From assembly GCA_946548895.1 (NCBI GenBank), contig CAMNQF010000016.1, forward strand, positions 1-56,914: a DNA stretch of 56,914 bases. The letters run 5' to 3'. Positions 1 through 41,810 of the stretch are shown here, one piece after another. This stretch comes from an uncultured bacterium. Lineage in GTDB: Bacteria > Bacillota > Clostridia > Oscillospirales > Oscillospiraceae. Numbering within the stretch: the stretch's first letter is position 1; each line of letters starts with the position of its first letter. Under the pieces are notes generated by a model. It saw only the letters and a list, made by a program, of their open reading frames with translations. It did no database searches and was not told where the DNA came from. A program made the position numbers and the translations under genes.

Positions 1-70
1 GCCCGGAGGGACTCGAACCCCCAACATTCAGAACCGGAATCTGACGCTCTATCCATTGAACTACGGGCGC
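1..70 (-). tRNA. tRNA-Arg (anticodon CCG), 3' end cut by the window edge
   Basis: Read on the minus strand this folds as a cloverleaf: acceptor arm start GCGCCCG, D-arm, anticodon stem TCAGA/TCTGA around loop TTCCGGT, and T-arm with the TTCGAGT loop. The anticodon CCG lies at 35-37 and would decode the Arg codon CGG, which is used heavily in the genes of this window. The last two bases of the acceptor stem and the discriminator fall outside the window. A promoter sits at 90-118. Confidence 0.93.
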
Positions 71-25280: not shown

Positions 25281-26066
25281 ATGAAAATTGCGTATTTGGG
25301 CATCGACCTGCTGAAGCCCGTGCTGGACTGCCTGCTGGCGGAGGGGTGCCAGGTGCTGAAGCTGTTCACCTGCCCGGTGGACAACGTGACGGAGACAAAC
25401 ACCGCCGTTATCCGGGCGGCGGAGGAGCGGGGCATCCCGTACACGCTGGGGCGGATCACCGCCGGCGACCTGGACGGGTTGGCGGCTCAGGGCTGTGAGC
25501 TGCTGGTGTGCGCGGGGTACTATTACCGCGTCCCTGTCACGGACGCCTTTCCCATGGTGAACTTCCACCCCACCCCCCTGCCCCTGGGCCGGGGGTCCTG
25601 GCCCATGCCCCGGCTCATCCTGGAGGGGGCGGAATACGGCGGCGTCACCGCCCACAGGATGGCGGCGGACTTTGACACCGGGGATATCCTGCTGTGGGAG
25701 CGGTTCCCCCTGGATGAGCGGGAGAACCATGGGACCTATATGGAGAAAGTGTACGAGCGGGTGCCCGCCATGGTGCGCGGGCTGGTGCACGACCTGCCGG
25801 GGGTGCTGGCGGAAGCCCGGCCCCAGGGGGCGGGGGACTACTGGCCGCTGCCCGGGGAGGAGGACTGGACGGTGGCGCCGGACATGGACGCGGCCCGGGC
25901 GGACCGCGTCCTCCGGGCGTTTTACGGCTACGAGTGCGTCTACCGGGACGGGGGGCGCCGGACGGAGCTGATCGGCGGGCGGGTGGTATTCGGGGACCCG
26001 GCGGGCCGCAGGTTCCCCCTCCGGGGCGGATACGTGGAGGCGGAGCGGGTCCGGGAACTGGACTGA
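25281..26066 (+). CDS. Formyltransferase-family protein (Fmt-like)
   Basis: A 261-residue protein with a formyltransferase domain (residues about 1-190). The catalytic Asn-His-Asp triad is visible as N and H in NFHPTPLPLGRG (about residues 94-96) and D in DFDTGDIL (about 135); AGYYYRVP and GVTAHRM are family segments. It lacks a full Fmt C-terminal domain; the last 60 residues form a small beta unit. This resembles methionyl-tRNA formyltransferase homologues and sugar N-formyltransferases that use 10-formyl-THF. It is too divergent to be PurN, which is present at 29870. It converges on the purine operon. AAGGGGAAGGG precedes the ATG. Confidence 0.75.
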   Translation: MKIAYLGIDLLKPVLDCLLAEGCQVLKLFTCPVDNVTETNTAVIRAAEERGIPYTLGRITAGDLDGLAAQGCELLVCAGYYYRVPVTDAFPMVNFHPTPLPLGRGSWPMPRLILEGAEYGGVTAHRMAADFDTGDILLWERFPLDERENHGTYMEKVYERVPAMVRGLVHDLPGVLAEARPQGAGDYWPLPGEEDWTVAPDMDAARADRVLRAFYGYECVYRDGGRRTELIGGRVVFGDPAGRRFPLRGGYVEAERVRELD

Positions 26067-26232: not shown

Positions 26233-27492
26233 CTAAAATGCCCGGCCGATGTCGGTGCGGAAGTGCATCCCGGTAAAGGAGATGGGCTTGGCGGCGGCGT
26301 AGGCGTTGGCAATGGCCTGCTCCAGGGTGTCCCCCAGGGCGGTGACGCCCAGCACCCGCCCGCCGTTGGTGAGGAATTCGCCCTGTTTCCCCAGCTTGGT
26401 GCCCGCGTGGAACACCACGGCGGATTTGCCCGCCTCCTCCAGCCCGGAGATGGGATACCCTTTTTGGTAGTCCAGCGGGTAGCCCCCGGAGGCCAGCACC
26501 AGGCAGCAGGCGGCCTGGTCCTTCCAGCGGATGTCCGCCCGGTCCAGCGTACCCTCCCGGCAGGCGGTGAAGATGTCCATCAGGTCGCTGTCCAGCAGGG
26601 ACAGCACCGCCTGGCACTCCGGGTCGCCGAACCGGGCGTTGTACTCCACCACGCGGGGGCCGCCGGGGGTGAGCATCAGCCCGAAGTAGATGACCCCCTG
26701 GAAGGGCCGGCCCTCCGCCTTCAGCGCCCGGATGGTGGGCAGGAAGATCTCGTCCATGCACCGCGCTGCCACGTCCGGGGTGTACTGGGGCGGGGGAGAG
26801 ATGGCCCCCATGCCGCCGGTGTTGGGGCCCTGGTTGCCGTCATAGGCCCGCTTGTGGTCCTGACTGGCGGGCATGGTGCGCACCCGCTCCCCGTCGGCGA
26901 AAGCCAGCACCGTCACCTCCGGGCCGGTCATGCACTCCTCAATGACCACCGTGGAGCCGCTCTCCCCAAACTTCTTGTCTGCCATCATCTCCCGGGCGGC
27001 CCGCTTGGCCTCATCCACGGTGGCGGCCACCACCACCCCCTTGCCCAGGGCCAGGCCGTCCGCCTTCACCACGATGGGCGCGCCCCGCTCCTCAATGTAG
27101 GCCAGGGCCTGGTCCAGCTCGGTGAAGGTCTCGTACCTGGCGGTGGGGATGTGGTATTTCTTCATCAGCTCCTTGGAGAACGCCTTGCTGGCCTCAATGA
27201 CGGCGGCGTTCTTCCGGGGCCCGAAGGCGGGGATGCCCGCCTCCTCCAGGGCGTCCACCATGCCCAGGGCCAGGGGGTCGTCGGGGGCCACCACCACGAA
27301 GTCCATGGCGTTTTCCTTGGCCCATTTCACCATGCCGTCCACGTCGGTGGCCTTCACGTCCACGCACTGGGCCGTCTGGGCGATGCCCGCGTTGCCGGGG
27401 GCGCAGAACAGCTCCGTCACCTTGGAGGACTGCTTTAATTTCCAACAGATGGCGTGCTCCCGGCCACCGCTTCCTACAACCAAAACCTTCAT
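26233..27492 (-). CDS. purD: Phosphoribosylamine-glycine ligase (GAR synthetase)
   Basis: A 419-residue ATP-grasp enzyme that joins glycine to phosphoribosylamine, the second step of purine synthesis. It opens with MKVLVVGSGGREHAICWKL and shows CAPGNAG, DPLALGMVD, the ATP-grasp segment PIVVKADGLALGKGVVVA near residues 135-155, PNTGGMGAISP and EYNARFGDPE, all typical of PurD at its usual length. AGGAGGGTTTT precedes the ATG. It is the last gene of the purine operon and is separated from the AICAR transformylase gene by 156 bp that hold a structured repeat (27546-27622). Confidence 0.97.
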   Translation of the reverse strand: MKVLVVGSGGREHAICWKLKQSSKVTELFCAPGNAGIAQTAQCVDVKATDVDGMVKWAKENAMDFVVVAPDDPLALGMVDALEEAGIPAFGPRKNAAVIEASKAFSKELMKKYHIPTARYETFTELDQALAYIEERGAPIVVKADGLALGKGVVVAATVDEAKRAAREMMADKKFGESGSTVVIEECMTGPEVTVLAFADGERVRTMPASQDHKRAYDGNQGPNTGGMGAISPPPQYTPDVAARCMDEIFLPTIRALKAEGRPFQGVIYFGLMLTPGGPRVVEYNARFGDPECQAVLSLLDSDLMDIFTACREGTLDRADIRWKDQAACCLVLASGGYPLDYQKGYPISGLEEAGKSAVVFHAGTKLGKQGEFLTNGGRVLGVTALGDTLEQAIANAYAAAKPISFTGMHFRTDIGRAF

Positions 27493-27545
27493 AAAACCCT
27501 CCTATGCTTGTCACGTTCGCGTTGGGCTGGCTTGACGGCCCGGCT

Positions 27546-27622
27546 GTTTCGCCTTCCGACTCGGACAAAACCCGCCTCCGCTTTGCGGCGGTTGAGCTTT
27601 TGTCCTCGCTCCAGTCCATCCG
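27546..27622 (-). repeat. Structured intergenic repeat family 2, copy B
   Basis: On the minus strand: CGGATGGACTGGAGCGAGG, a hairpin closed by GGACAAAA / TTTTGTCC with inner arm ACCGCC / GGCGG, then GAGTCGGAAGGCGAAAC. It aligns along its length with copy A at 41833-41907; inner stems differ but still pair. It fills most of the gap between purD and the AICAR transformylase gene. Confidence 0.8.
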
Positions 27623-27648
27623 GGCCTGCCAGCCTACGCTCACGCTTC

Positions 27649-28824
27649 CTAATGATGGAACAGCCGGATGCCGGTGAACGCCATGACCATGCCGTGCTTG
27701 TCGGCGGTGGCGATGACGTGGTCGTCCCGGATGGAGCCGCCGGGCTGGGCGATGTATTTTACGCCGGACTTGAAGGCCCGCTCCACGTTGTCGCCGAAGG
27801 GGAAGAAAGCGTCGGAGCCCACCGTGACCCCGGACTGCCTGGCGATCCACTCCTTTTTCTCCGCCTCGGTGAGCACCTCGGGGCGCACCTTGAAGGTGTT
27901 CTGCCACACGCCGTCGGCCAGCACGTCGTCATGCTCGTCGGAGATGTAGATGTCAATGGCGTTGTCCCGGTCCGGGCGGCGGATGCCGTCCACGAACTGG
28001 AGGCCCAGCACCTTGGGATGCTGGCGCAGCCACCAGGTATCCGCCTTGCTCCCGGCCAGCCGGGTGCAGTGGATGCGGCTCTGCTGGCCCGCGCCCACGC
28101 CAAGGGTCTGTCCGTCCTTCACGTAGCACACCGAGTTGGACTGGGTGTACTTCAGCGTGATGAGGGACAGCAGCATATCGTGCTTGGCCGCCTGGGGCAG
28201 GTCCTTGTTCTTAGTGACGATGTTGTCCAGCATCCTCTCGTCAATGGCCAGGTCGTTATAGCCCTGCTCGAACACGATGCCGAAAATGCTCCGGCGTTCA
28301 ACGAGGGCGGGGGCATAGTCCGGGTCGATTTTCACCACGTTATAGCCGCCCTTGCGCTTGGTTTTGAGGATTTCCAGCGCCTCGGCGGTGTAGTCCGGGG
28401 CGATGACGCCGTCGGACACCTCCAGGGCCAGATAGCGGGCGGTGTCGGCGTCGCAGGGGTCGGACAGCGCCGCCCAGTCGCCGTAGGAGCACAGCCGGTC
28501 GGCCCCCCGGGCCCGGATATAGGCGCAGGCGATGGGGGAGAGCTCGCCCTCGGGGGCGAAATAGATCTGACGCTCCACGCCGGTGAGGGGCAGGCCCAGG
28601 GCCGCGCCGGCGGGGGAGACGTGTTTGAAGGAGGCGGCGGCGGGCAGGCCGGTGGCCTGCTTCAGCGCCTTCACCAGCTGCCAGGAGTTCAGCGCGTCCA
28701 TGAAATTGATGTACCCCGGCTTGCCGTTGAGGACCTCCAGGGGGAGCTCCTGGTCCCCCTTCATGAAGATGCGGGCGGGCTTCTGGTTGGGGTTGCAGCC
28801 GTATTTCAGTTCCAGTTCCGTCAT
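27649..28824 (-). CDS. purH: Stand-alone AICAR transformylase (C-terminal half of PurH)
   Basis: A 391-residue phosphoribosylaminoimidazolecarboxamide formyltransferase that moves formyl from 10-formyl-THF to AICAR. It contains only the AICARFT part of PurH: it starts ELELKYGCNPNQKPARI, has the KH catalytic motif in SFKHVSPAGAALGLPL, and ends with FPFGDNVERAFKSGVKYIAQPGGSIRDD. The MGS-like IMP cyclohydrolase domain of ordinary PurH is absent and its role is taken by the PurO-type protein at 29151-29855. Start 28824 follows GAGGAG by 8 bp; GTG 28833 would lie in that site. The symbol is used for the transformylase only. Confidence 0.93.
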   Translation of the reverse strand: MTELELKYGCNPNQKPARIFMKGDQELPLEVLNGKPGYINFMDALNSWQLVKALKQATGLPAAASFKHVSPAGAALGLPLTGVERQIYFAPEGELSPIACAYIRARGADRLCSYGDWAALSDPCDADTARYLALEVSDGVIAPDYTAEALEILKTKRKGGYNVVKIDPDYAPALVERRSIFGIVFEQGYNDLAIDERMLDNIVTKNKDLPQAAKHDMLLSLITLKYTQSNSVCYVKDGQTLGVGAGQQSRIHCTRLAGSKADTWWLRQHPKVLGLQFVDGIRRPDRDNAIDIYISDEHDDVLADGVWQNTFKVRPEVLTEAEKKEWIARQSGVTVGSDAFFPFGDNVERAFKSGVKYIAQPGGSIRDDHVIATADKHGMVMAFTGIRLFHH

Positions 28825-28844
28825 TGATTGCACTCCTCTAACCG

Positions 28845-29132
28845 TTATTTAATATTTGGGATACGGGCTAAATAGCTTTTTGCCTGGGATGGGTCATGAC
28901 GAAAAGTGACCCATTGTTCGGAAAGGCTGTGAGATTCAACGATATAGTCAGCTAAAAGCCAACCGATAGATAGGGAATGCTGAGAAGCATTGTTCCAGGC
29001 GGGATGATGTCGATATACGTATGGAGACAAACCGCATAATTGGTCAATTTCTGAAAACGCCATTCGTATATTTTCTTGTCCACAATGGAGAAGGAAGTTT
29101 GTCAAAGGTATATATTTGTCCCCCTTTGGCAT
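28845..29132 (-). CDS. Small DUF7662-like protein in an AT-rich insert
   Basis: A 95-residue soluble protein with MAFSEIDQLCGLSPYVYRHHPAWNNASQHSLSIGWLLADY style sequence, that is FxEID-L near the start, then P-AWWxN / HS / GW-type positions, recalling DUF7662 proteins found near mobile and defence genes. Function unknown. Base composition is 43 percent GC over 28861-29100, against well above 60 percent in the genes on both sides, and codon use differs accordingly. It has its own GGGAGGCG site, 18 bp after the PurO-type stop, and leaves 20 bp to the transformylase start, so it sits cleanly inside the operon. It looks horizontally acquired. Confidence 0.7.
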   Translation of the reverse strand: MPKGDKYIPLTNFLLHCGQENIRMAFSEIDQLCGLSPYVYRHHPAWNNASQHSLSIGWLLADYIVESHSLSEQWVTFRHDPSQAKSYLARIPNIK

Positions 29133-29150
29133 AAATAGCGCCTCCCCAAT

Positions 29151-29855
29151 TTACCAGTGCTTGTTGATGATGGAAGTTTCGTCGTCCCCAGTCTCCAGGT
29201 CGATGTACCGCACAAACAGGGAGACTTTGTTATCGTCGTTCAGCGCCAGCCACAGGTCGTTGGCCAGGGTCTCCGCGTCGGGGGCGGTGATGGACACCAT
29301 CCGCGGCTCCCCCTGGAAGGAGGGCAGGGGGTTCCCGTCGCTCTCATAGGTGTGGATGAAGTGGCCCATCCCCGCCTTGGGGTCGGAGTACTCGAAAAAG
29401 TACCGGCAGGCGCAGGCGGGGTCCCCGTCCAGGCTCTTGAGGATGGACAGGTTATAGGAGCCGTCAGGCTTTACCACCCCGGAGATGCGGGGAGTAAAGT
29501 TGGGGCCGTCCGGCTCGAAGGTGCGGGTGTTCAGGGCATGGCGGTAGCAGTGGCCCTCCAGGATGTGGTCCCGGATGGTGTCGGTCTGGTCGCCGTTGGT
29601 GACAATGGTGAGGCCGTTTTCCATCCGCCGCACCGGGTGGTAGATGATGAGGGAGGGGTCGGTCATTTTGGACTCGTCGAAGGCCTTGGTGCGGATGCCG
29701 TCCTCCGTCTCCTCAAAGACCCGGTTGCGGCTGTTCTCGCTGCGGCCCATGATAAAGTAGGCGATGACGGCGCTCTTGTTGTCCGGGGCGCGGCCCAGTA
29801 TAATGCCCCGGCCGGGGTAGGGATTATTCTGTAAATACGCGGTCATGTCGGTCAT
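29151..29855 (-). CDS. purO: PurO-type IMP cyclohydrolase
   Basis: A 234-residue protein of the IMP cyclohydrolase family first known from archaea (PurO), closing the ring of FAICAR to IMP. Features include LQNNPYPGRGIILGRAP, YFIMGRSENSRNRVF, IYHPVRRMENGLTIVTNGDQTDT and YSDPKAGMGHFIHTYESDGNP. It complements the AICAR transformylase that lacks the cyclohydrolase domain, so together they replace bifunctional PurH. AAAGGAG stands before the first of two ATGs (29855, 29846); the first has the better spacing. It follows purN by 14 bp. Confidence 0.88.
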   Translation of the reverse strand: MTDMTAYLQNNPYPGRGIILGRAPDNKSAVIAYFIMGRSENSRNRVFEETEDGIRTKAFDESKMTDPSLIIYHPVRRMENGLTIVTNGDQTDTIRDHILEGHCYRHALNTRTFEPDGPNFTPRISGVVKPDGSYNLSILKSLDGDPACACRYFFEYSDPKAGMGHFIHTYESDGNPLPSFQGEPRMVSITAPDAETLANDLWLALNDDNKVSLFVRYIDLETGDDETSIINKHW

Positions 29856-29869
29856 GGCTGACGCTCCTT

Positions 29870-30514
29870 TCACAAATTCGGCTGGTTCAGGATGCGGACG
29901 GCCCGGCCCTCCACCCGCAGGCGGCCCTGGCAGAACAGGGACACGGCCTCGGGGAGGATCACCCACTCCGCCTGTTCCATAATCCGGCGCTGGAGGGTTT
30001 CCGGGGTGTCGCCCTCCTCCACGGGTACCGCCTTTTGCAGCACGATGGGCCCCCCGTCGCACTCCTCGCTGACAAAGTGGACGGTGGCGCCCGACACCTT
30101 CACCCCGTACTCCAGCGCCTTTTCGTGGACGTGGAGCCCGTAGTACCCCTCGCCGCAGAAGGAGGGGATCAGGGCGGGGTGGACGTTCAGAATAGCGTTG
30201 GGGTAGGCCCGGACCATCTCCTCCGTGAGGATGACCATGAACCCCGCCAGCACCACCAGGTCAATGCCCAGGCGTTTCAGCTGCTCCACCAGAGCCGCGG
30301 TCATGTCCCGGCTGGAGGGGTAGTCCTTCCGGGCCGTCACATAGGCGGGTATGCCCGCCCGGGCGGCCCGCTCCAGGGCGTAGGCCCCCGGCTTGGAGGA
30401 GATGACGGCGGCAATCTCCCCGTTGATCATCTCCCCCCGGCGCTGGGCGTCGATGAGGGCCTGCAAATTGGTGCCCCCGCCGGACACCAGCACGGCGATG
30501 CGTTTGACGCTCAT
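29870..30514 (-). CDS. purN: Phosphoribosylglycinamide formyltransferase
   Basis: A 214-residue 10-formyl-THF-dependent GAR transformylase, third step of purine synthesis. It starts VKRIAVLVSGGGTNLQALID, has VVLAGFMVILTEEMV, the catalytic NVHPALIPSFCGEGYYGLHV (Asn and His) and GATVHFVSEECDGGPIV (Asp), and a normal length. Its ATG overlaps the purM stop (ATGA at 30511-30514), which marks the start against longer in-frame extensions. Confidence 0.96.
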   Translation of the reverse strand: MSVKRIAVLVSGGGTNLQALIDAQRRGEMINGEIAAVISSKPGAYALERAARAGIPAYVTARKDYPSSRDMTAALVEQLKRLGIDLVVLAGFMVILTEEMVRAYPNAILNVHPALIPSFCGEGYYGLHVHEKALEYGVKVSGATVHFVSEECDGGPIVLQKAVPVEEGDTPETLQRRIMEQAEWVILPEAVSLFCQGRLRVEGRAVRILNQPNL

Positions 30515-31554
30515 ACCAGCTCCACGCCCCCGCCGCCGGACACCACATCGCCGATCCGGTAGGCCTCCTCGCCGGCCTCCTTCAGGAGGTCCAGGGCCCG
30601 GTCCGCCTGCCCGGCCGGGACGGCCAGCACCATGCCGACGCCCATATTGAAGGTGTTGTACATATCCCGCTCCGGGATATTGCCCAGCCGCTGGATAAGC
30701 TTGAAAATGGGCGGGCAGGGGAAGGCGTCCAGCCTGATCCGGGCGGCGAGGCCCTCCGCCATCATCCGGGGCACATTCTCGTAAAATCCGCCGCCGGTGA
30801 TATGGCTGACGGCGTGAATGCCGATCCCCGCCGCCAGCAGGGCCTTTACCGCCTTGACGTAGATTTTGGTGGGGGTGAGCAGGGTGTCGCCCAGCCCCCG
30901 GCCCCCCAGCTCGTCCAGGGGGGTGTGGAGGTCGGCGTGCTCGATGTGGAGCACCTTGCGCACCAGGGAGAAGCCGTTGGAGTGGACGCCGGAGGAAGCC
31001 AGGCCGATGAGGGCGTCCCCCTGGGCCAGCTTCCTGCCGTCGATGATGTTCTCCTCGTCCACCATGCCCACGGAGAAGCCCGCCAGGTCGTACTCGTCCA
31101 CAGGGTAGAAGCCGGGCATTTCGGCGGTCTCGCCCCCCACCAGGGCGCACTGGGCCTGGCGGCACCCCTCGGTGATGCCCGCCACGATCTGGGCGATGCG
31201 GCCGGGTTCGTTTTTGCCGCAGGCGATGTAGTCCAGGAAAAACAGGGGAGAGGCCCCGCCGCAGATGATGTCGTTGACGCACATGGCCACGCAGTCGATG
31301 CCCACGGTGTCGTGCTTGTCCATCAGGAAGGCCAGCTTCAGCTTGGTGCCCACGCCGTCGGTGCCGGACACCAGCACCGGCTTTTTCATCCCGGCGAGGT
31401 CGGGGGCAAACATACCGCCGAAGCCCCCCAGGGTGCCCATCACGCCGGGGATATAGGTGGATTCCACCATGGGCTTGATGCGCCGGACCGCCTCGTATCC
31501 GGCGGTGACGTCCACCCCGGCGGCGGCGTAGGATGCGGAATGGGATTCGTTCAT
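30511..31554 (-). CDS. purM: Phosphoribosylformylglycinamidine cyclo-ligase (AIR synthetase)
   Basis: A 347-residue AIR synthetase converting FGAM to AIR with ATP. Diagnostic segments are YAAAGVDVTAGYEAV, VSGTDGVGTKLKLAF, GIDCVAMCVNDIICGGASPLFFLDY, LVGGETAEMPGFY and SHITGGGFYENVPRM. Start 31554 has GGAGGG 10 bp upstream and overlaps the TGA of the DUF3795 gene by ATGA. The FGAM synthase genes that would supply its substrate are not in this window. Confidence 0.96.
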   Translation of the reverse strand: MNESHSASYAAAGVDVTAGYEAVRRIKPMVESTYIPGVMGTLGGFGGMFAPDLAGMKKPVLVSGTDGVGTKLKLAFLMDKHDTVGIDCVAMCVNDIICGGASPLFFLDYIACGKNEPGRIAQIVAGITEGCRQAQCALVGGETAEMPGFYPVDEYDLAGFSVGMVDEENIIDGRKLAQGDALIGLASSGVHSNGFSLVRKVLHIEHADLHTPLDELGGRGLGDTLLTPTKIYVKAVKALLAAGIGIHAVSHITGGGFYENVPRMMAEGLAARIRLDAFPCPPIFKLIQRLGNIPERDMYNTFNMGVGMVLAVPAGQADRALDLLKEAGEEAYRIGDVVSGGGGVELV

Positions 31555-31817
31555 ACCAGTTTGTCCCTCCATTTTGCGCACTGCTCGATGCGTTTGCCGC
31601 CGTCGCCCTGCTTCTCATCATAGGCGAACTGCTTGAGAAGGCCGCAGGGGAAGGCTTCACACTGGCCGCAATGCTCCTTTGTTTTTTCCTCGCAGCAGGA
31701 TTTTACGGGGCAGCTGCCGCCCCAAAAGGGTTTTTGAATCTGTACGCAGCCGCCGCACCCCATCTGTTCACGATAGGCGCACTCGCCGCACAGGATGCCG
31801 CACCGTGACTCGATCAT
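31551..31817 (-). CDS. DUF3795-type Cys-rich protein within the purine operon
   Basis: An 88-residue protein with twelve Cys in spaced pairs (CGILCGECAYREQMGCGGC, CPVKSCCEEK, HCGQCEAFPCG), the pattern of DUF3795 proteins, which probably bind zinc or an iron-sulfur cluster. Its role is unknown. It lies between the PurF homologue and purM; its stop overlaps the purM start, so it is translated as part of the operon. AAAGGGGATGG precedes the ATG at 31817. Confidence 0.8.
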   Translation of the reverse strand: MIESRCGILCGECAYREQMGCGGCVQIQKPFWGGSCPVKSCCEEKTKEHCGQCEAFPCGLLKQFAYDEKQGDGGKRIEQCAKWRDKLV

Positions 31818-31835
31818 ATTGTACCATCCCCTTTA

Positions 31836-33254
31836 TCATTCTTTTCCGGTCCAGCAGTAGGTGCACACCTTGTCCCGGTCGATGCCGATGGCCTCCAGCA
31901 GGCCGTCCAGGGATTGGTATCCCAGGGAGTCGAAGCCCAGCTTTTCGCAGATGGACTTCAGCAGGCACTTCCCCCGCTCGGTGGACGAGTCGGAATATTC
32001 CTCCAGATGCCGCTCCCCCTCGTCCCCCTCCAGCTCCCGGACGGTCTTGCGGGCCAGCAGCTCCATGTCGGAGTTGCTCCGGGAGAAGTTGAGGAACTTG
32101 CAGCCGTACATGATGGGGGGGCAGGCGGAGCGCATATGGACCTCCTTGGCCCCCGCGCCGTAGAGGAAGTCCACCGTCTCCCGCAGCTGGGTGCCCCGGA
32201 CGATGGAGTCGTCCACAAACAGGAGCTTTCTGCCCTGGATCAGCTCGGGCACGGGAATCTGCTTCATCTTAGCCACCTGGTTGCGCACCTCCTGGTTGGC
32301 GGGCATGAAGGACCGGGGCCAGGTGGGGGTGTATTTCACGAAGGGCCGGGCAAAGGGCTTGCCGCTGGCGTTGGCGTAGCCGATGGCGTGGGGCACGCCG
32401 GAATCGGGCACCCCGGCCACCCAGTCCACGTCGGGCATGGCGCCCTTGGCCTTCTCCGCCCGGGCCATGATCTCGCCGTTGCGGCAGCGCATGACCTCCA
32501 CGTTCTGCCCCTCGTAATTGGAGTTGGGGTAGCCATAGTAGGTCCACAAAAAGGCGCAGATGCGCATTTTGTCCCCCGCCGGGGCCAGGGTGTCCCAGCC
32601 GGACCGGGTGACCCGGACGATCTCTCCGGGGCCCAGCTCGTAAGCGCTTTCGTAGCCCAGCTTCTGGTAGGCGAAGGACTCAAAGGACACGCAGCAGCCC
32701 TCGTCGTTTTTGCCCACGAGCACCGGCAGGCGGCCCAGCCGGTCCCGGGCGGCCACGATGCCCTCCGGGGTGAGGATGAGGATGGTGGACGAGCCGTCGA
32801 TGACCTCCTGGGCGTATTGGATGCCCTCCACCAGGGAGTTCTTCTGGTTGATGAGGGCGGCGGTGAGCTCGGTGGAGTTCACCTTGCCGGAGCTCATGGC
32901 CATGAACTGGTGGCAGCCGTCGAAATACTGTTCCACCAGGGCGTCGGCGTTGTTGATGATGCCCACGGTGGAGATGGCGTACAGGCCCAGGTGGGAGCGC
33001 ACCAGCAGGGGCTGGGGGTCGGTATCGCTGATGCAGCCGATGCCGGAGGTGCCGTGGAAATTCTCCAGGTCCTTTTCGAACTTGGTGCGGAAAGGGGTGT
33101 TTTCGATGGAGTGGATCTGCCGCTGGAAGCCGTCCGCCTCATCGTAAATAATCATGCCGCCCCGGCGGGTGCCCAGGTGGGAGTGGTAGTCCACGCCGAA
33201 AAAAATGTCAAGAGACACGTCGCGCTGGGAAATTGCGCCGAAAAAACCGCCCAT
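31836..33254 (-). CDS. PurF-like amidophosphoribosyltransferase lacking the N-terminal Cys
   Basis: A 472-residue protein of the glutamine PRPP amidotransferase family. It opens MGGFFGAISQ, whereas functional PurF glutaminase sites begin with Cys (MCGI or a cleaved propeptide); no Cys lies within the first 90 residues. The PRPP transferase half is intact: LLFVDDSIVRGTQ (PRPP loop, about 345-357), PDSGVPHAIGYA and the C-terminal CPPIMYGC and CTYCWTGKE, which recall the iron-sulfur ligands of Bacillus PurF. It could use free ammonia, an ammonia partner, or act as a regulator beside a canonical PurF elsewhere. The start is fixed by AAGGAGG at 33261-33267; upstream lies the microprotein stop, so no missed Cys-bearing N-terminus fits. 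Confidence 0.9.
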   Translation of the reverse strand: MGGFFGAISQRDVSLDIFFGVDYHSHLGTRRGGMIIYDEADGFQRQIHSIENTPFRTKFEKDLENFHGTSGIGCISDTDPQPLLVRSHLGLYAISTVGIINNADALVEQYFDGCHQFMAMSSGKVNSTELTAALINQKNSLVEGIQYAQEVIDGSSTILILTPEGIVAARDRLGRLPVLVGKNDEGCCVSFESFAYQKLGYESAYELGPGEIVRVTRSGWDTLAPAGDKMRICAFLWTYYGYPNSNYEGQNVEVMRCRNGEIMARAEKAKGAMPDVDWVAGVPDSGVPHAIGYANASGKPFARPFVKYTPTWPRSFMPANQEVRNQVAKMKQIPVPELIQGRKLLFVDDSIVRGTQLRETVDFLYGAGAKEVHMRSACPPIMYGCKFLNFSRSNSDMELLARKTVRELEGDEGERHLEEYSDSSTERGKCLLKSICEKLGFDSLGYQSLDGLLEAIGIDRDKVCTYCWTGKE

Positions 33255-33266
33255 TACAGAGCCTCC

Positions 33267-33413
33267 TTATTTCTTGCGCTTGCGCCGGAACAGCCAGACT
33301 GCCGTTCCGGCCGCTGCCGCGGCCAGCAGCAGCGCGAGGACCACCCCAACGGGGTCTCCTCCAACGAGAATTGCGGTGGGGCCGTCCTGCCCGCCGATGA
33401 CGCCCAGGTCCAC
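33267..33413 (-). CDS. 48-residue membrane microprotein with GVIGGQDGPTAILV motif
   Basis: A short frame starting GTG 33413, 10 bp after the purC stop, and ending TAA 33267-33269 inside the Shine-Dalgarno of the PurF homologue. The product begins MDLGVIGGQDGPTAILV, then a single hydrophobic helix (VVLALLLAAAAAGTAVWLF) and a basic tail RRKRKK. The GxIGGxDGPT motif is that of the N-terminal part of Na+-translocating decarboxylase beta subunits, but the protein is far too short to be one. Single-pass, with the tail likely inside. Its placement with tight spacing on both sides argues for real translation. Function unknown. Confidence 0.65.
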   Translation of the reverse strand: MDLGVIGGQDGPTAILVGGDPVGVVLALLLAAAAAGTAVWLFRRKRKK

Positions 33414-33423
33414 GGGGCGCGCC

Positions 33424-34110
33424 TCAGGCGAAGAACAGCTTGGACAGGGTCATGGGGTCGATATACTGCCCGTCCTTGTACACCCGCATATTGCCGGAGG
33501 CGATCTCGTCGATGAGCATCACCTTGCCGCCGGCGTCGTAGCCGTACTCAAATTTGATGTCGTAGAGCACCAGGCCCTTCTCCTTCAGGTCGTCGGCCAC
33601 AATCCGGGTGATCTTCTGGGTCATGTCTTTGATGTCGTCGTACTGCGCCTCGGTCATCACGCCCAGGGCCACCAGGCCGTCCTTGGTCACCAGGGGGTCG
33701 CCCTTCTCGTCATTTTTAAAGGTGGTCTCCACATAGGCGGGCAGGTCCGCGCCCTCCTGGATGTACTCGCCGTAGCGGCGGAAGAAGGAGCCGACCGCCT
33801 TATGGCGGCAGATGACCTCCAGCCCCTTGCCGAACACCTTGGCGGGCAGCACCTCCATGGTGGTGTCGTCCAGGTTGGCGGAGACGTAGTGGGTGCGGAT
33901 GCCGGCGGCGTTGATCTTCTCAAAGAAATAGATGGACATACGCAGGTTCACGTCGCCCACGCCCTCAATGGTCAGGCCCACGGAGTTCTCGCCGGGGTCG
34001 AACACGCCGTCCTTGCCGGTGCAGTCGTCCTTGAACTTGAGCAGGTAGTTGCCGTTGTCCAGGGCGTAGACGTTCTTGGTCTTGCCAGTGTAAACCAGTT
34101 TGTTTTCCAT
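33424..34110 (-). CDS. purC: SAICAR synthase
   Basis: A 228-residue phosphoribosylaminoimidazole-succinocarboxamide synthase, joining aspartate to CAIR with ATP. Typical segments are [80 protein letters not shown] and the terminal LSKLFF. AAAGGATG precedes the ATG. Between it and purE lie 110 bp with a family 1 repeat (34193-34233). Confidence 0.96.
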
Positions 34111-34192
34111 GATGATTCATCCTTTCTGACTGATAAGCATCTGTTATGTTACCGAGCGGAAACGCTGCGGTATGGGATGCGGTGGTAACGAA

Positions 34193-34233
34193 TTAAAGTT
34201 CTTTTTGCCTACTTTTTCTTTCAAGAAAAAGTA
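34193..34233 (-). repeat. Structured intergenic repeat family 1, copy 3
   Basis: On the minus strand TACTTTTTCTT-GA-AAGAAAAAGTA hairpin followed by GGCAAAAAGAACTTTAAT. It overlaps the purE stop: the last codons (LTFS and TGA) lie in the left half of the hairpin, so the repeat supplies the purE stop codon. Confidence 0.8.
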
Positions 34234-34718
34234 AGCTCCGCCTGGAGCCTGGCCTCTTTTTCCGCGATTTGAGCGGCCATGGCTTCCCGGGCCCGGTCTA
34301 ATTTGGCGGCCAGGTCCCCGTCGGACACCGCCAGGATCTGGGCGGCCAGCACGGCGGCGTTCTTGGCCCCGTTGATGGCGACCGTCGCCACCGGGATGCC
34401 GCTGGGCATCTGGACGGTGGCCAGCAGGGCGTCCAGCCCGTCCATGGCGCTTCCCTTCATGGGGATGCCGATGACGGGCAGGGTGGAGTTGCCGGCGAAG
34501 GCCCCGGCCAGGTGGGCAGCCATACCCGCCGCGCAGATCAGGACGCCGAAGCCGTTGGCCCGGGCGCTTTTGGCGAAACTGGCGGCGGCGGCGGGGGTGC
34601 GGTGGGCGCTGAGAATGTGGGCCTCATAGGGGATGCCGAACTCCTTGAGCTGGGCGCAGGCCCCCTGGACCACAGGCCAGTCGGAATCGGAGCCCATAAT
34701 GACGGCGACTTTTTTCAT
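34221..34718 (-). CDS. purE: N5-CAIR mutase, class I
   Basis: A 165-residue N5-carboxyaminoimidazole ribonucleotide mutase. KKVAVIMGSDSDWPVV holds the GSxSD loop, LSAHRTP the catalytic His, and ICAAGMAAHLAGAFAGNSTLPVIGIP and GAKNAAVLAAQIL are family signatures. Class I enzymes need PurK, which is not in the window. AAAGGAGG lies 6 bp before ATG 34718. It is the first structural gene of the purine operon, 24 bp after a terminator-like hairpin and a leader peptide gene. The C-terminal four residues are encoded by a family 1 repeat. Confidence 0.95.
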   Translation of the reverse strand: MKKVAVIMGSDSDWPVVQGACAQLKEFGIPYEAHILSAHRTPAAAASFAKSARANGFGVLICAAGMAAHLAGAFAGNSTLPVIGIPMKGSAMDGLDALLATVQMPSGIPVATVAINGAKNAAVLAAQILAVSDGDLAAKLDRAREAMAAQIAEKEARLQAELTFS

Positions 34719-34742: not shown

Positions 34743-34781
34743 CAAAAAGAAACAGGCCGCCGCGTGGCGCGGCGGACCTGT
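34743..34781 (-). terminator. Attenuator-like terminator before purE
   Basis: Minus-strand stem ACAGG-T-CCGCCGCG / CGCGGCGG-CCTGT, loop CCA, then TTCTTTTTGAT. It lies between leader peptide and purE. Its 5' arm (TCCGCCGCG, 34768-34776) is nearly duplicated at the leader stop codon (TCCGCCGCC, 34793-34801), which could pair with the 3' arm instead. Confidence 0.85.
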
Positions 34782-34789
34782 CCTATGAA

Positions 34790-34861
34790 TTAGGCGGCGG
34801 ATTTGGACGCAATGGGGCCATGGAAACGGAAGCCCGGACGGACACGGGCGGAACAGACCAT
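34790..34861 (-). CDS. 23-residue leader peptide of the purine operon
   Basis: ATG 34861 with Shine-Dalgarno GAGGTGG 5 bp upstream, ending TAA at 34790. The peptide starts MVCSARVRPGFRFHGPIA and ends SKSAA. It is Arg-rich (three CGT codons) and begins about 26 nt after the expected transcript start. Its stop codon lies 8 nt before the terminator hairpin, and its last codons duplicate the 5' arm of that hairpin. The layout fits ribosome-mediated attenuation of purE onward. I do not recognise the peptide family; the sensed signal is unknown. Confidence 0.6.
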   Translation of the reverse strand: MVCSARVRPGFRFHGPIASKSAA

Positions 34862-34893
34862 GACAGCCACCTCATTTCCAAATAGACACTTCC

Positions 34894-34922
34894 ATTTTAG
34901 CTAAAAAAAGCCCAAAAAGCAA
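34894..34922 (-). promoter_or_regulatory. Promoter of the purine operon
   Basis: Minus-strand TTGCTT (34917-34922), 17 bp, TAAAAT (34894-34899). No guanine riboswitch-like junction is visible in the short leader. Confidence 0.65.
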
Positions 34923-41508: not shown

Positions 41509-41620
41509 GGCTAAAATGGCCTGTCGATGAAAATTCACAAATAGAAAAGCAGACGGAAGGGCCGCGGCCCCTCCGCCTGATGTGGCAAAAAGAACCCCCG
41601 CCGTGGCCGTGCCGCCCCAT

Positions 41621-41790
41621 TAAAAACCTGCACAAAAATGCAGGTGGGTCGCCTCCGCTTGGCTTTACCGCTTCCAACGTCCAGGTGCCTCCGAAGAGGG
41701 CCGGGAGGCCTGCGAACCGCCGCGCGAGTGGAGCGTCCCGTTTTAAAAATGTGGGTTTTAACAGGGCAGGTTCACGTAGTTAGAACCCGG
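41621..41790 (-). ncRNA. Structured small RNA, probably 6S RNA
   Basis: The 600-bp gap between the foldase and DUF1292 genes holds, on the minus strand, a self-contained RNA-like unit of about 170 nt ending in an intrinsic terminator (ACCTGCA / TGCAGGT then TTTTTA, 41621-41645). Its ends can pair (TTCTAAC near 41780 with GTTGGAA near 41672), leaving a large asymmetric bubble flanked by CCCTGTTAAAACC and TTTTAAAACGGGACGCTCC, and an inner hairpin GCCTCC / GGAGGC. Size, closed ends and open middle are those of 6S RNA, which binds RNA polymerase in stationary phase. I see no consensus promoter. The call rests on fold and resemblance, not a search. Confidence 0.55.
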
Positions 41791-41810
41791 CAGGGGTAAA
41801 AAATAAATGC

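Follow-up and report, generated by a model that had tools for sequence, protein, structure and literature searches.

A conserved leader reading frame beside a terminator upstream of purE: a probable ribosome-dependent attenuator of a purine operon in Oscillospiraceae

Introduction

Control of purine operons in Firmicutes is usually ascribed to PurR, to guanine riboswitches or to ZTP riboswitches, the last of which report a lack of formyl-tetrahydrofolate (formyl-THF). Several described systems place a short open reading frame (ORF) in front of a biosynthetic gene. In the Escherichia coli pyrBI attenuator the leader ORF runs up to the terminator, which puts the trailing ribosome in a position to mask the hairpin. 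Attenuators of the trp and his type combine a short translated leader with competing helices and an intrinsic terminator, and arrest-peptide leaders (TnaC, SecM, and the RAPP-type ApdA and ApdP) carry a recurrent motif near the end of a short ORF, preceded by constrained codons. Candidates from the Breaker laboratory (ilvB-II, fthC, odc1) pair, in the accessible portions of those surveys, an upstream ORF (uORF) with an RNA structure before a metabolic gene.

Here we describe a leader upstream of purE in an uncultured member of the Oscillospiraceae (GenBank assembly GCA_946548895.1, contig CAMNQF010000016.1; the whole analysed stretch of 56,914 nucleotides is called the window below). Like pyrBI, it precedes a nucleotide-synthesis operon and has its stop codon within ribosome reach of the terminator, but the pathway is that of purines instead of pyrimidines, the leaders share a recurrent C-terminal motif, and a covarying helix joins their start and end. 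The resemblance to arrest peptides lies in the recurrent motif near the end of a short ORF and in the constraint on the codons before it. The ending xAPK or xASK is one that we take to resemble RAPP or RAGP; among 58 rows bearing the motif, however, neither R-A-P-P nor R-G-P-P was seen by eye and, with neither RAPP nor a secretion or tryptophan gene, the purE leader is a candidate for arrest only. Read by eye, the purE leaders also have no run of codons for a single amino acid in common, in contrast to trp- and his-type leaders: short arginine runs occur in L006 and L007 (RRR) and in L107 (RRRR), and the window leader has none. A further difference from that type is spacing, the median distance from stop to terminator being 3 nt here, as against more than 20 bp in the set of known leader-peptide attenuators treated in the available portion of PMC4824070. 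The ZMP/ZTP riboswitch (RF01750) occupies the same site upstream of purE in relatives but is a different RNA. The Breaker surveys name no purE uORF in the portions at hand, and their purS motif belongs to Corynebacterium. The available parts of PMC6429828, PMC9971707 and PMC8632094, and those of PMC11109978, PMC4824070 and PMC2965389, yielded no published leader peptide for purE; an entry in a supplementary table of any of these is possible.

The purE upstream region and its operon

The elements discussed below, for which the original prediction gave no strand, all lie on the minus strand:

34894..34922, minus strand: promoter read from the sequence, TTGCTT (34922-34917), a spacer of 17 and TAAAAT (34899-34894)
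34867..34873, minus strand: leader Shine-Dalgarno (SD) sequence GAGGTGG, read from the sequence
34790..34861, minus strand: leader ORF MVCSARVRPGFRFHGPIASKSAA, 23 codons, from ATG at 34861 to TAA at 34790
34854..34882, minus strand: 5' strand of the start-end helix, containing the SD and start codon, from pair counts in two alignments; its parts are P1 (34882-34877), P2 (34876-34870), P3 (34863-34858) and inner pairs to 34854
34802..34828, minus strand: 3' strand of the start-end helix, equal to leader codons 12-20, with a bulge GCG at 34810-34808
34862..34868, minus strand: candidate antiterminator segment GGCTGTC, which could pair with GGCGGCC of the terminator (34761-34755)
34793..34801, minus strand: near-repeat TCCGCCGCC at the leader stop, judged a chance match
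34768..34776, minus strand: TCCGCCGCG, the counterpart of that near-repeat in the terminator 5' arm
34743..34782, minus strand: intrinsic terminator GACAGGTCCGCCGCGCCACGCGGCGGCCTGTT with a T-rich tail, stem -25.3 kcal/mol
34221..34718, minus strand: purE (TIGR01162, above cut-off)
26233..34718, minus strand: operon under the leader, purE to purD, eight enzymes (NCBIfam scan)

The promoter, the 23-codon leader with its SD and the intrinsic terminator before purE, which made up the framework of the original prediction, were all confirmed. The hairpin spans 34782-34751 and is followed by TCTTTTTG as far as 34743, 24 nt from the purE ATG at 34718; leader and terminator together fold better than shuffled sequences (z -2.7), and the window peptide ends in the motif G-P-I-A-S-K. 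A consensus promoter scan of the window did not list the promoter at 34894..34922. In relatives with the same type of leader (group A, defined below), TTG[AC]TT-17-TA[AG]AAT is present in 18 of 18 loci, the window included, and group B has TTGATT-18-TAGAAT in 7 of 7.

Downstream of purE lie, in order, purC, purF, an 88-aa ORF, purM, purN and the genes for IMP cyclohydrolase, AICAR formyltransferase and purD, which from gene order and strand we infer to form one transcript. Scores for purC, purF and IMP cyclohydrolase are below the curated NCBIfam cut-offs and those for the other five enzymes above them, and the 88-aa ORF has no NCBIfam match. In place of a bifunctional PurH there are separate genes (27649-29852, minus strand) for AICAR formyltransferase and for an IMP cyclohydrolase resembling archaeal PurO. 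Two neighbouring features are a formyltransferase-like gene facing purD (25281-26066, plus strand), matched below cut-off by both the fmt and the PurN models, and a 6S RNA (RF00013, 58.2 bits; 41591-41799, minus strand), which shares the strand of the purE leader and lies some 7 kb upstream of it.

Conservation of the leader ORF

Relatives were sampled at three depths: the genus (42 genomes, 41 with purE), the family (120 genomes, 97 with purE) and the order (117 genomes, 105 with purE). Upstream regions were fetched for up to 30 loci each from the family and order samples, together with 80 more, ten of which belong to the genus; a scan of genome contigs kept 80 purE loci out of 583. The resulting 247 regions became 242 once five duplicates were collapsed, L002-L004 not being part of the purE set. 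A strict search for [GS]-x-x-[AVP]-[SPTLHQ]-[KNR] near the C-terminus matched 58 of these 242 regions, and after removal of five implausible matches (L070, L110, L112, L192, L199) the remaining 53 loci served for the helix, terminator, antiterminator, stop-gap and SD-accessibility tests. Five groups of leaders are referred to below. Group A has its motif at residue 15 and counts 18 loci, among them the window. Group B comprises 7 loci with leaders of the MKAEHF type, one of which, L037, belongs to the cultured relative Pseudoflavonifractor capillosus. In the 6 loci of group C the motif stands at residue 14, while group D consists of L021, L025, L027, L028, L029 and L179 (6 loci) and group E of L039, L040 and L046 (3 loci). 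Counts of loci are not independent, because many are close relatives.

Within the genus, 37 of 41 purE loci carry a leader with a C-terminal G-x-x-[AV]-[SP]-K, the others being L024, with the variant GVTAPA, L177, L178 and L180, the last with a ZTP riboswitch in the place of the leader. Beyond the genus the motif is present but patchy: 11 of 74 leader clusters have it, whereas 1000 shuffles gave 1.1 on average and never more than 6. Motif discovery over 92 leader clusters gave a score of 665, compared with 503 +/- 8 in residue shuffles, a difference inflated by relatedness and by unequal restarts (80 for the real set, 12 per shuffle); the 20 loci of the ZTP test described below were left out of it, among them L184, which has no ZTP match. 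The translated-leader-plus-terminator arrangement foreseen before purE thus appears, from the comparison, to be conserved in frame among relatives.

The pattern ATTGCGYCCAAA occurs only once in its own genome, which gives no sign of such leaders before other genes there. The pattern GFRFHGP was found in 3 of 150 genomes including its own, lying in the two others away from their purE; by our estimate about 0.6 chance matches were expected. Upstream of purE at L044, L049, L050, L091 and L109, leader ORFs end in an in-frame R-V-S, with CCGTGTATC; these leaders from outside the genus are possibly a divergent form of the same leader.

Peptide and RNA constraint on the leader

When the motif was sought at the nucleotide level in any frame, 46 of 49 unique sites proved to be in frame and open, with an SD-preceded start, and the distances from start to motif took seven lengths (42, 45, 48, 51, 54, 57 and 60 nt), all multiples of three. 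Over the five codons before the motif, one among four windows examined, pN/pS was 0.42 in group A, 0.50 in B, 0.36 in C and 0.42 in E, against 0.78-2.35 in the other frames of these groups; in group D the same codons are unconstrained (1.14). With nine codons the contrast holds in groups A and C, another frame is lower in B (0.44 vs 0.68), and the values in E are close (0.58 vs 0.53). The leader as a whole gave no sign of purifying selection in group A (pN/pS 1.12), and its motif-anchored codons had 0.96, compared with 0.98 and 0.82 in the other frames.

The motif itself behaves otherwise. In codons 16-19 of group A, first and second positions vary (pN 0.13-0.59) and the third is fixed, codon 20 is invariant, and pS over codons 16-20 is 0.00; fixed third positions imply constraint on the nucleotides. 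Purely peptide-level conservation of the motif was therefore rejected, the motif codons being fixed at the nucleotide level. A purely RNA motif is disfavoured by the frame test and by the constraint on the preceding codons, since an RNA alone would not need the frame to be kept across seven lengths. On these alignments, the leader carries both a peptide and an RNA layer of constraint.

A reading built on the peptide layer is that of a nascent-chain sensor of purine or one-carbon status, in which a pathway metabolite would stall the ribosome at G-x-x-[AV]-[SP]-K, or fail to, and so decide termination before purE. We put this forward tentatively, as an unlikely reading.

The start-end helix

In group A the leader start pairs with codons 12-20: 88.4% of cells are paired, against 34-49% when the strands are slid, and five pairs have changed on both sides, a number reached in 13 of 500 shuffles, with the start codon covarying with codon 14. 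In a 31-sequence alignment, which had been fitted to the helix structure, 11 of 22 pairs show double changes, and the 43 double-change cells compare with 17.3 after shuffling and were reached in 0 of 500 shuffles. RNAalifold on its own recovered the inner helix P3 on both alignments, and P1 and P2 not as drawn. The start-end helix is accordingly backed by covariation in the alignments, best in its inner part.

A covariance model built from 18 group A loci found seven group B loci and the family members L115 and L121 outside its training set, with weaker matches at E 0.02-0.2. Applied to the 42 genus genomes at E<1e-4, the RNA model found the purE leader only, in 25 genomes, seven of them outside the training set, the next best match having E 0.025. 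Compared with shuffles, the mean z of the start-end duplex was -1.55 in group A, -2.75 in B and -1.93 in E, and weaker in C (-0.55) and D (-0.91); in four Ruminococcus-type leaders (L060, L069, L098, L105) the pairing was not significant. The helix contains the SD, and a role as a gate hiding it was considered and found unsupported: relative to codon-shuffled leaders, SD accessibility is equal in group A (z 0.02) and greater in group B (z +4.1).

The leader stop and the terminator

The stop codon lies 7 nt from the hairpin in the window and a median of 3 nt from it across the 53 loci. Of the 53 loci, 49 have a gap within -10..12, and of 106 out-of-frame stops 6 do, in a search for hairpins near the leader stop that is biased toward short gaps; at L015, L022 and L174 (gaps 17-18) the hairpin called is probably not the visible terminator. 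With the stop so close, a ribosome there should mask a terminator arm. In the available portion of PMC4824070, a terminator placed a few bp behind a stop codon was almost fully repressed, and the repression vanished once translation was uncoupled. Taken with the stop position, these findings lead us to infer that the operon is switched on by translation that reaches the stop.

This sign is opposite to that originally proposed. The original prediction held that a near-repeat of the terminator 5' arm at the leader stop competes for the 3' arm, a ribosome finishing the leader letting the terminator form and an earlier pause preventing it. The repeat does exist, with 8 of 9 matches, and pairing between it and the 3' arm is possible (the leader end of the window gives -15.7 kcal/mol, z -1.3), but such a match is at chance level (p 0.08, leader-tail shuffles). 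Nor was the duplicated arm seen in the relatives tested, the best tail match in 26 other loci being 7 of 9 or fewer, and the complementarity of the leader end to the 3' arm is at background in the 53 loci (mean z -0.06; 3 of 53 below -1.64). That a finished leader would let the terminator form is also doubtful in the light of the accessible text of PMC4824070, as a ribosome standing on the stop codon would reach into the hairpin and should block it. The stop-codon copy was rejected as an antiterminator on account of its chance-level match and background complementarity, and the model built upon it is now barely tenable.

The leader start, by contrast with its end, is complementary to the terminator 3' arm above shuffles (mean z -0.80; window -2.7), with z below -1.64 in 14 of 53 loci, 13 of them in the genus. 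Between the 5' segment and the 3' arm, 7-10 contiguous pairs involving GGCUG[UC]C or GGCUGUU and its neighbours are possible in 11 of the 18 loci of group A, one of them the window. The pairing does not extend to the other 7 of these 18 or to any of the 7 loci of group B, and no covariation was seen in it; the antiterminator, if real, is therefore a local addition. Since the terminator is the stronger structure in the window (-25.3 against -15.4 for the antiterminator duplex), a ribosome would have to hold its 5' arm. It is plausible, as a reading of these pairings, that the 5' strand at the leader start, not the copy at the stop codon, is the antiterminator. Read in this way, the purE leader differs from the duplicated-arm model in both arm and sign.

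The same geometry would suit a particular form of masking, the pyrBI-type nucleotide-speed sensor, in which scarce purine nucleotides would slow the polymerase in the leader so that the ribosome draws level and covers the terminator. The leader stop at or in the terminator, the aptness of purine-nucleotide sensing for this operon and the steep distance dependence described for pyrBI (available portion of PMC4824070) make it a serious candidate, if not a probable one; the peptide sequence would be irrelevant to such a device, which leaves the recurrent C-terminal motif and the constraint before it unexplained. Were the leader instead an unregulated leftover, a weakly used short ORF with a terminator that sets a fixed partial read-through, there would be little reason for many species to have kept the frame, the position of the stop, the motif and the helix, and we hold this to be very unlikely.

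ZTP riboswitches at the leader site

Of the 117 genomes of the order sample, 29 have a ZTP riboswitch (RF01750) within 200 nt upstream of purE, which implies that sensors have been exchanged at this site; in the genus, one of 42 genomes does (G159). Among 20 purE loci picked for lacking the leader, the site is taken by a ZTP riboswitch in 19 (L145, L147, L159, L180 and 15 others, from other genera plus one genome of the genus), a proportion that is no rate, many of these loci having been chosen with another visible shared element. Conversely, no Rfam element was found at any of 20 purE loci with a leader candidate, and a covariance-model search over the window leader (E up to 5) matched no family. 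In the genome of the window, which is 95.9% complete, RF01750 is without a match, and a single match to the purine riboswitch lies elsewhere and scores below the cut-off. Six group B genomes and the group D genome G168 have both a purE leader and, about 4 kb downstream on the same strand, a ZTP riboswitch (for example G066 C26:3501-3579; similarly G145, G150, G152, G163, G167 and G168), which perhaps lies inside the pur operon.

These observations bear on whether the leader is itself a riboswitch or protein-binding RNA, its helix with the GCG bulge binding a purine-pathway ligand or a protein and thereby controlling leader translation or termination. Covariation of the start-end helix, motif codons fixed at the nucleotide level and the riboswitch at the same site in relatives would all fit. 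We consider it improbable nevertheless, given the failure to match Rfam in the window and at the 20 leader loci, the frame kept across seven start-motif lengths, and start-end pairing of little strength in groups C and D that falls short of significance in the four Ruminococcus-type leaders.

Much further down the scale stands a sensor of formyl-methionyl initiation, whereby low 10-formyl-tetrahydrofolate would cut leader initiation and so change termination. Formyl-THF is a purine substrate and the ZTP riboswitches of relatives sit at this very site, but under masking a drop in initiation would raise termination, which is the reverse of what a formyl-THF shortage calls for, and the idea appears most improbable. 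PMC11109978, in its accessible part, puts forward a related idea for the fthC uORF, with tRNA-fMet as the route by which initiation is limited. As the signal for the purE leader we favour purine or one-carbon status, given that relatives have a ZTP riboswitch at the same spot.

Proposed mechanism and significance

Comparison between loci establishes, at the level of the alignments, that the ORF is kept in frame, that its stop is held beside the terminator and that the start-end helix covaries. From these features, we think it somewhat probable that a ribosome-dependent transcription attenuator controls the purine operon, most likely through masking of the terminator by the ribosome. With no ribosome following RNA polymerase through the 23-codon leader, the terminator would form and transcription would stop; with a ribosome at the leader end while the polymerase is at the terminator, the 5' arm would be covered and the operon read. 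The translating ribosome would also open the start-end helix and free GGCUGUC, which in this lineage could hold the terminator 3' arm, and it may pause at the conserved C-terminal motif. The sign, in which translation turns the operon on, and the antiterminator role are conclusions of the same conditional kind. The purE leader may thus combine a pyrBI-like geometry with an added nascent-chain pause.

A conserved leader ORF before purE, at the site used by the ZTP riboswitches of relatives, would add to the types of sensor used in the purine pathway and would exemplify the exchange of sensors at a single site. Should the nascent-chain reading hold, the leader would be a purine counterpart of TnaC, and within a single order, made up mostly of bacteria from the gut, it would occupy the same place as ZTP riboswitches.
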